From positions 1-43,504 of IMG/VR virus record IMGVR_UViG_3300017708_000944: a DNA stretch of 43,504 nt. One strand, given 5' to 3'. The translations under genes and the position numbers were made by a program. The notes beneath the pieces were generated by a model that was given only the letters and a program-made list of their open reading frames with translations, was not told the origin of the DNA and ran no database searches. Of this stretch, positions 39,340 to 39,787 are shown one piece after another. Source of the DNA: a virus. The first letter of the stretch is position 1. Every line of letters begins with the position of its first letter.

Positions 39340-39488
39340 CCCATTAGTAAATTGGTGACACTTTTCTGTTGCTAGGTAAGTGCCCAACCCCCTGCGATTA
39401 CGCTGCTAGGCGTAATCCAGATGGTGCAAAATTATCGTTTGCATTTGTGTTTGTAGACTCAAATACCTGTCGATCCTGTTTCACCCCC
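39340..39488 (-). ncRNA. ssrA: Split tmRNA, coding (mRNA-like) piece
   Basis: Minus-strand RNA starts GGGGGUGAAACAGGAUCGAC, the tmRNA 5' half tRNA-like domain (acceptor strand GGGGGUG, then D-loop-like GGAUCGACAGG). The tag frame GCA...UAA follows at 39398-39442. After it, GUUG with CAAC and CACUU with AAGUG can form a pseudoknot before the gene start at 39332. Positions 39482-39488 pair over seven bases with 39725-39731 of the acceptor piece, and 39452-39458 pair with 39768-39774 (P2 helix). The 3' half is absent downstream, so the gene is permuted. The 3' end is approximate. Confidence 0.88.
39398..39442 (-). other. tmRNA tag reading frame (ANDNFAPSGLRLAA)
   Basis: GCA resume codon at 39440-39442, then 14 codons and UAA at 39398-39400, preceded by AAACACAAAU. 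ANDNFA- at the start and -LAA at the end match tmRNA degradation tags; ANDNFA is typical of alphaproteobacteria. Confidence 0.88.
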
Positions 39489-39495
39489 ATCAAAA

Positions 39496-39702
39496 TTACG
39501 CGAGGAAGTATTGGTTGAACCCAAAGACTTCCATGATCATGAACGTAAAGAATAATAATAATACTGCCCAAAGAATCATCTTACCGCTTGCGTTAGTTGA
39601 TGCAAGTCGTATTCCTATTAGTTCGTTTCCTAATAATCTAACTCCGACTTCAAATTCATTTGTAGTAGTCTTTATGTCTATTATTTTATCTTTACTATCC
39701 AT
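39496..39702 (-). CDS. 68-residue membrane protein inside the tmRNA intervening segment
   Basis: The ATG at 39700-39702 has CGGAGACGAT upstream. The N-terminal part is soluble (DSKDKIIDIKTTTNEFEVGV, RLLGNELIGIRLASTNA) and the C-terminus has one membrane helix (MILWAVLLLFFTFMIMEVFG). The frame fits between the CCA end of the acceptor piece (39721) and the 5' G of the coding piece (39488), a segment that is usually short and noncoding in permuted tmRNA genes. If the precursor RNA is processed, the mRNA would be released between the two RNA pieces. No family recognised. Confidence 0.68.
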   Translation of the reverse strand: MDSKDKIIDIKTTTNEFEVGVRLLGNELIGIRLASTNASGKMILWAVLLLFFTFMIMEVFGFNQYFLA

Positions 39703-39720
39703 ATCGTCTCCGTGTAATTT

Positions 39721-39776
39721 TGGTGGAGGTGATGGGTACTGCCCCCATGTCCAGAATATCCTCCAACATCTACATT
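39721..39776 (-). ncRNA. ssrA: Split tmRNA, acceptor piece (3' tRNA-like half)
   Basis: Minus-strand RNA begins near AAUGUAGAUGUUGGAGGAUA, followed by UUCUGGAC, then the T-arm AUGGG-GGCAGUA-CCCAU, acceptor strand CACCUCC, discriminator A and encoded CCA (39723-39721). CACCUCC pairs with GGGGGUG of the coding piece. UGUAGAU (39768-39774) pairs with GUCUACA of the coding piece. The T-loop is not the usual UUCRANY; as I recall, alphaproteobacterial split tmRNAs have a similar GGCAGU arm. The 5' end is estimated from the late promoter just upstream. Confidence 0.85.
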
Positions 39777-39779
39777 TTT

Positions 39780-39787
39780 TATTTATA
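39780..39787 (-). promoter_or_regulatory. T4-type late promoter for the tmRNA operon
   Basis: Minus-strand TATAAATA preceded by TAG, ending just upstream of the predicted acceptor-piece start. Its expected start point (about 5-7 bases downstream) coincides with the acceptor piece. Half of a divergent pair with 39804-39811. Confidence 0.68.

Follow-up and report, generated by a model that had tools for sequence, protein, structure and literature searches.

A protein gene in the intervening segment of a permuted two-piece tmRNA gene of a marine phage, and a putative cargo slot for small phage genes

Organization of the locus

The window analysed in this work is a marine phage virus record of 43504 bases, which encodes the thymidylate synthase ThyX and carries at its end a stretch matching a cyanophage primase-helicase gene. 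Two tmRNA models of Rfam match its minus strand above their gathering cut-offs, RF04321 at 39773-39398 (71.3 bits, cut-off 47) and RF01849 at 39834-39354 (74.7 bits, cut-off 50), and each match extends across a reading frame of 68 codons, here named ORF68. On these alignments positions 39354-39773 of the minus strand are identified as a permuted two-piece tmRNA gene. All features given below are on the same strand. The acceptor piece (39721-39773, from the Rfam alignment) comprises the 5' strand of P2, the T-arm, the 3' strand of the acceptor stem (39731-39725) and a terminal ACCA (39724-39721), with the CCA ending at 39721. It is followed by an intervening segment of 232 nt from the CCA to G1 (39489-39720), as delimited by a paired scan for acceptor and coding pieces, and by the coding piece (39354-39488, with G1 at 39488), the limits of which come from the Rfam alignments. 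The coding piece starts with the 5' strand of the acceptor stem, GGGGGUG (39488-39482), which pairs with CACCUCC at 7/7 positions and by reading of the sequence includes a G3-U70 pair, a pair that bears on alanine charging. Further along lies the proteolysis tag ANDNFAPSGLRLAA with its stop codon (39398-39442, from the Rfam alignment and translation of the frame); it terminates in AA, as expected of permuted two-piece tmRNA, and the same tag was also called by ARAGORN in two other loci (L004 and L008). No group I intron was found in the window, where the two tmRNA models are the only ones above gathering and the T-arm is contiguous. A short segment free of genes is usual in permuted tmRNA, though not strictly so; that of the window has 232 nt and holds a selected ORF.

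ORF68 and its relatives

ORF68 (39496-39702, ATG start, TAA stop) encodes a predicted single-helix membrane protein of 68 aa and nearly fills the segment, with 18 nt between the CCA and the ATG and the TAA 7 nt short of G1. An earlier note on this DNA had described a 68-codon frame between the CCA end and the coding piece, with a ribosome-binding site and a C-terminal membrane helix, and all three elements were recovered at the locus. The frame runs from 39702 to 39496; a Shine-Dalgarno sequence GGAG (39708-39711), read in the sequence and found again by script, lies 5 nt ahead of the ATG; and the Kyte-Doolittle maximum over 19-mers is 2.43 at residue 42, within the second of two helices (residues 16-35 and 38-60) that AlphaFold models with moderate confidence (mean pLDDT 72.6, pTM 0.39). 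By hydropathy, helix 38-60 is the predicted membrane segment. The comparison of relatives that the note had proposed, conservation of the frame against that of the RNA ends, gave a dN/dS of 0.07 with L001 (7.0 synonymous and 2.0 non-synonymous changes) and of 0.09 with L002, and a pN of 0.053 with L004 at saturated synonymous sites (pS 0.79), while the acceptor piece is identical at 53/53 positions to each of L001, L002, L003 and L004. On this pattern of substitutions ORF68 is a genuine protein gene under strong purifying selection.

A scan of viral contigs found 286 relatives; among the best 80 of these 286, which were retained, most have no adjoining tmRNA. An alignment of the window with 37 relatives (38 sequences) has 23 invariant columns, and the family core, FE..R.LGNE and SGK..LLLFFTFM.E.FG, is present in the window. 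ORF68 matched no family in Pfam or PHROG, endonuclease families included, and tblastn of ORF68 and of a distant relative gave nothing among named phages, in a search from which records very near the window were possibly left out. The family is an uncharacterised phage membrane protein.

Scripted placement of 88 ORF68 matches, within the fetched stretch of each, assigned 17 to intervening segments, a number that includes duplicates of the window record and of some contig records, one to a position beside a tmRNA and 70 to loci without a paired tmRNA, the latter including L012, which ends at the contig end. At L009 a relative of 75-80% identity lies directly upstream of a tmRNA which has an ordinary segment of 105 nt; this layout, together with the 70 of 88 matches, means that the coupling of ORF68 with tmRNA is not obligatory. 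Two frames share the 443-nt segment of L010 and L011; one encodes a DUF6356 protein, and the other, a relative of ORF68, ends 30 nt inside the coding piece. Both loci fall below Rfam gathering (L010 at 43.8 bits against 47). At L083 a DUF6356-like frame is alone in the segment. A DUF3310-type gene is found close upstream in the window, L083 and L009 (for L009 the translation was matched by eye).

Closing helix of the intervening segment

The two ends of the segment, AAAUUAC (39714-39720) and GUAAUUU (39493-39499), pair in a closing helix of 7 bp that extends the acceptor stem, and its 3' strand contains the ORF68 stop codon UAA (39498-39496). The helix has the same register as in 125 viral segments of at least 60 nt and is present in the minimum free energy fold of the window, which retains both the acceptor stem and the closing helix (z -5.5). 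In the 125 segments, where position k pairs with position -(5+k), the paired fraction at positions 2-10 amounts to 0.89-0.98, compared with 0.49-0.85 expected from column composition, and the pair types vary, changing on both sides. The mean longest end-to-end helix in 121 segments is 10.6 bp as compared to 6.7 bp with swapped partners (maximum 7.05 in 200 swaps), a strong statistic but not a formal test, since swapping ignores relatedness. Read by hand, C9 pairs with G in the window, and the corresponding pair of L002 and L004 is U-A; both sides differ, and the change falls in the final sense codon of ORF68. Because the ends pair and extend the acceptor stem, the gene would sit in a removable loop. 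Pairing also exceeds expectation in the 52 bacterial segments of at least 28 nt (0.58-0.83 against 0.33-0.55 at positions 1-10), and since these are short and gene-free the helix would predate the cargo and is probably ancestral. As for the acceptor stem itself, 330/330 viral rows have 7/7 pairs in many combinations, with G3-U70 in 329; as at least 6/7 pairs was a search criterion, it is only the covarying combinations that count as evidence.

Promoter-like sequences

Upstream of the acceptor piece we read a promoter-like box, TATAAATA (39780-39787). Of 180 viral tmRNAs, 86 have the same box at most 110 nt upstream of the T-arm and at clustered distances, as compared to 0/93 bacterial tmRNAs and 37/1300 random windows. 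A perfect TTGACA is present 15-19 nt upstream in 54 of 89 viral loci bearing TATAAAT, while of 469 background occurrences of TATAAAT 6 have one; a T4 late promoter throughout was thus rejected, as most boxes look sigma70-like. In the window the best -35 has two mismatches to TTGACA, which 148 of the 469 background sites equal or better, and the box could be a sigma70 -10 or a T4-late-like element. With only 18 nt from CCA to ATG, a promoter of its own for ORF68 would need to sit in the conserved acceptor piece. The simplest reading is a single transcript that acts as pre-tmRNA and also as mRNA, by which acceptor piece, ORF68 and coding piece would be co-transcribed. The suggestion of the earlier note that the two RNAs are one stands to the extent that a selected gene lies in the segment and that a shared transcript is the simplest reading; its co-transcription part we infer from the 18-nt gap.

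Segment lengths and enrichment of reading frames

From two pattern scans and scripted pairing of acceptor with coding pieces, 157 distinct viral segments were obtained among the matches listed. Identical segments were counted once; given that these are the matches listed and include related contigs, the viral counts are not independent draws. Length counts cover paired loci, which were 94/118 of those fetched for bacteria and 11/80, 109/119, 77/107, 40/54 and 88/116 for the viral sets, and sets picked by a pattern resembling a ribosome site were kept out of the enrichment counts. In the 94 paired bacterial loci the segment has a median of 28 nt and a maximum of 139, none (0/94) reaching 150 nt, in agreement with the remark of the earlier note that ordinary segments are short. 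The 157 distinct viral segments among the matches listed have a median of 74 nt, with 46 of at least 100 nt and 21 of at least 150 nt. Frames were scored as qualifying when an ATG near the CCA was led by a ribosome-site core of at least 3 nt (AGG, GGA or GAG) and the stop was near G1. Among the matches listed, such frames occur in 10/21 viral segments of at least 150 nt (mean 0.18, maximum 2 in 100 dinucleotide shuffles), in 8/25 of 100-150 nt (shuffles, mean 0.96, maximum 4) and in 1/54 of 60-100 nt (shuffles, mean 1.78, maximum 6). The excess over shuffles is thus confined to long segments, and 11 of the 21 segments of at least 150 nt among the matches listed have no qualifying frame. The cultured Sinorhizobium phage Phosso (L481, 2038-2640) has a permuted tmRNA by Rfam with a segment of 410 nt, in which no frame led by a ribosome site fills the segment. 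The cultured Rhodobacter phage RcXuper (L482, 2334-2636) likewise has a permuted tmRNA by Rfam; in the regions shown the tmRNA of both phages is unannotated.

Cargo families

Frames of at least 28 aa over all viral loci numbered 110 and fell into 24 clusters, nine of them with at least two members. It should be noted that one cluster merges two families through weak matches, that one (L094/L147) was built on the wrong frame, and that some singleton clusters without a ribosome site are perhaps spurious. For L094/L147 the TTG frame chosen by the clustering script was rejected in favour of an ATG frame (pN/pS 0.26 versus 1.20 and 0.40), which is without a ribosome-site core. By our count twelve small-protein families are predicted to occupy the intervening segment in viral contigs, these being ORF68, the 38-aa MKNPLV type, GDLSKHR, DUF6356, DUF2061, NWDWHW, SSCCTRK, the L123, L094 and L140 types, HNH and the L446 type. 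Pairwise dN/dS for ten of the twelve is 0.04-0.51 where defined, with few changes in the shortest and one pair without any non-synonymous change (dN/dS undefined), and the HNH and L446 families have the support of homologues. Domain matches were obtained for DUF6356 (6e-11), HNH (PHROG, 2e-25) and DUF2061 (1.8e-4, just under the cut-off); the L174/L196 protein is the only HNH-like one among the cargo examined, and 7 of 17 cargo representatives passed the membrane-helix threshold. A tblastn search with two further cargo proteins against named phages, possibly leaving out records very near the window, gave nothing. Judged by these families, the segment is a general slot for many unrelated cargo genes and not one oddity; beyond the window, dozens of related viral sequences have a small protein gene in this part.

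The 38-aa MKNPLV membrane frame is intact in 36/36 distinct 159-nt segments carrying AAAGGAG. As these segments were chosen by length and by a shared start pattern, this speaks weakly for a durable link. Beyond the overlap described below, its variability at the three codon positions is 0.155, 0.056 and 0.246. In these segments (L503, L165 and others) an ORF1 of about 19 codons, which starts at GTG, ATG or TTG right after the AAAGGAG, lies ahead of the 38-aa frame and runs into it, and translational coupling is possible. ORF1 was dropped as a gene, its own part having no clear codon-phase signal and some of its ends being misplaced. By our count the frames of six families end 13 nt inside the mature tmRNA, and for other frames the overlap is 23-42 nt, so that mRNAs of this kind would be cut by RNase P. 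The tmRNA of L503 has as neighbours a T4-type helicase loader, an exonuclease and ThyX, and that of L083 has ThyX and an endolysin. Cargo of the GDLSKHR and L446 types also has relatives at loci with distant ORF68 relatives and without a paired tmRNA (L060, L064, L068, L070 and L053, L055, L056, L059, L061, L067, L076, L079). The GDLSKHR and L446-type cargo seems to be drawn from one accessory gene neighbourhood.

Gain, loss and exchange of the segment

The window and L004 agree without mismatch over the 246 nt before the CCA end and differ downstream by two mismatches (+84 and +87) before +754, and within this otherwise near-identical DNA the segment is identical at only 189/232 positions, which argues that a diverged ORF68 allele has replaced another. 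The identity of their coding pieces (128/130) was considered as a sign of selection on the RNA and dropped, as the flanks are equally alike (300/300). In L001 the ORF is similar (198/207) and the DNA downstream of it is different. Two loci were found in both an empty and a filled version: L127 (5 nt) and L083 (223 nt) have flanks that are 88-100% identical in 100-nt bins over 1.9 kb upstream and 92-100% over 800 nt downstream, and L169 (37 nt) and L144 (239 nt, DUF2061-like) have flank bins of 80-100% over 2 kb upstream and 1.15 kb downstream. L126 and L094 hold differing membrane frames between flank bins of 94-100% (1.2 kb upstream, 600 nt downstream). The near-identical genomes L134 and L171 differ in both segment and acceptor stem with pairing retained, and the two halves of the stem seem to have changed together. 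The pair L190/L174, having only the tmRNA and its nearest flank in common, runs against a tidy picture of a slot. Taken over these loci the segment looks like an exchangeable slot, in which a protein gene would be gained, lost or swapped with the rescue RNA left intact.

Discussion

We put at roughly 0.8 the probability that the segment is a cargo slot in a functional permuted tmRNA gene, the transcript of which would be both pre-tmRNA and mRNA. One promoter upstream of the acceptor piece would yield one transcript, ribosomes would initiate at the site just past the CCA, the acceptor stem would next close over the gene, and both tmRNA pieces would be freed, with RNase P cutting ahead of G1 and a 3' nuclease cutting past the CCA. 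In the window family processing would leave over a small complete mRNA, since start and stop are inside the segment and the stop is ahead of the expected RNase P site. In this way the phage would co-express one more gene without any cost for the mature RNA. A more demanding version, which we put forward as tentative, is that of a dedicated slot where the excised mRNA gives small, often membrane-active proteins, rescue RNA and effector are made in fixed proportion, and a run-through mRNA cut by RNase P becomes a substrate of that very tmRNA.

The segment could also be a neutral harbour, a discarded loop that tolerates insertions, so that recombined genes come to be expressed without a functional tie to the tmRNA. 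We give this slightly less than even odds. The unrelated nature of the cargo, the empty and filled states in near-identical genomes, the replacement of alleles and the occurrence of one gene both within the segment and elsewhere are all in line with it; the 159-nt family, with its one gene kept in all 36 distinct segments, speaks weakly against it, given how those segments were selected.

The earlier note had also speculated that tmRNA maturation might control expression of the membrane protein. By this account the closing helix and the cleavages by RNase P and at the 3' end regulate the protein: the unprocessed helix would hide or border the ribosome site, and run-through mRNA made stopless by RNase P would be rescued and tagged by the same tmRNA. 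The strongest hints come from ribosome sites within the helix, such as the AAGGAG of the 159-nt family, and from frames that end inside the mature tmRNA, be it by 13 or 23-42 nt (the cultured phage Melnitz included) or by 30 nt as in the ORF68 relative of L010; the stop codon of the window also lies within the helix. But the helix is probably older than the cargo, start and stop of the window family are both within the segment, and ORF68 also exists outside it, at L009 and at loci without tmRNA. Control of ORF68 by maturation is thus a possible but speculative reading, and we regard such regulation as rather doubtful.

Very improbable in our view is a broken tmRNA, a decaying gene which the insertion has split. 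Pseudoknot 1 normally lies between P2 and the tag, and by comparison of sequences the window (39453-39488), L010 and L083 all have a shorter stretch there than L009, which makes the activity of the window tmRNA uncertain; the three short versions possibly represent a miniaturised tmRNA. The RF04321 score of the window is well below the 124.9 bits of L009, and ARAGORN found no tmRNA in the window and missed those of L001 and L002. Against decay, ARAGORN did call the tmRNA in L004 and L008, which have a layout like that of the window, and its success in 8/18 filled loci as compared to 5/13 of the short-segment loci submitted means that the misses are not special to filled loci. The tmRNA identity is supported by RF04321 scores above gathering in the filled loci L002, L003, L004 and L008, as well as in L083, L144, L174, L177, L186, L106, L438 and Melnitz (L307). 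Window and L002 share the complete acceptor piece and 123/130 positions of the coding piece where the downstream DNA agrees at only 138/300 (upstream 240/300), the tag is intact and acceptor stems covary in the wider set. A decayed tmRNA was rejected on the L002 conservation, the ARAGORN calls and the covarying stems, and judged by its conservation the window tmRNA would be functional. That ORF68 is a chance frame and no gene, as its mere 68 codons and the lack of Pfam, PHROG or named-phage matches (distant relative included) might suggest, is practically out of the question and was rejected in view of the dN/dS of 0.07-0.09, the 286 relatives and the 23 columns invariant in 38 sequences.

The cargo-slot reading has its closest parallel in the permuted two-piece tmRNA of Alphaproteobacteria and marine phages (RF01849, RF04321), with which the window shares acceptor piece, CCA, segment and tagged coding piece and from which it differs in that its segment carries a selected protein gene. 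Group I introns of tmRNA genes likewise may place a protein gene, such as a homing endonuclease gene, in a part absent from the mature RNA, with protein genes in 23 of 844 founding introns according to the part of that study available to us (PMC11915505). Unlike these the window is without an intron, removal would be by tRNA-end processing, and ORF68 has no endonuclease match, while the L174 ORF does match HNH. The same source, in that part, mentions permuted tmRNA intervening sequences with a tRNA-Ala gene (one) and with a repeat (one), which are also lodged in the intervening sequence; these inserts, an RNA gene and a repeat, come from single records and do not form families of protein genes (PMC11915505). 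Permuted tRNA genes of algae and archaea, the halves of which are religated, have short segments of 1-74 bp, and the portion of the article at hand does not mention a protein gene in them (PMC3978253). No protein gene in a permuted tmRNA segment is described in the accessible part of PMC10117765, nor in the literature searched, as far as its accessible text goes. If true, the cargo slot would be a new, intron-free site for protein genes, namely the loop cut out of a structured RNA gene; it suggests that the two-piece architecture leaves a tolerant site which phages exploit, and it hints at a reservoir of small phage proteins that lack annotation.

A two-piece tmRNA and a glutamine riboswitch have been described for Melnitz (L307, 5149-5601), and the part of that article available to us does not mention a gene in the segment (PMC9004378). 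As in filled loci, its own segment of 142 nt has a frame led by a ribosome site: a candidate frame of 54 codons with GGAG and 19 nt from CCA to ATG, which ends 42 nt inside the coding piece, at a place where no CDS is annotated. A blastn search with the Melnitz tmRNA matched only four Melnitz records. As this phage is cultured and bears such a frame, translation versus RNase P processing on one RNA is directly testable in it. By eye, the Melnitz peptide resembles other cargo peptides (PKYLSG/PKYLAG).
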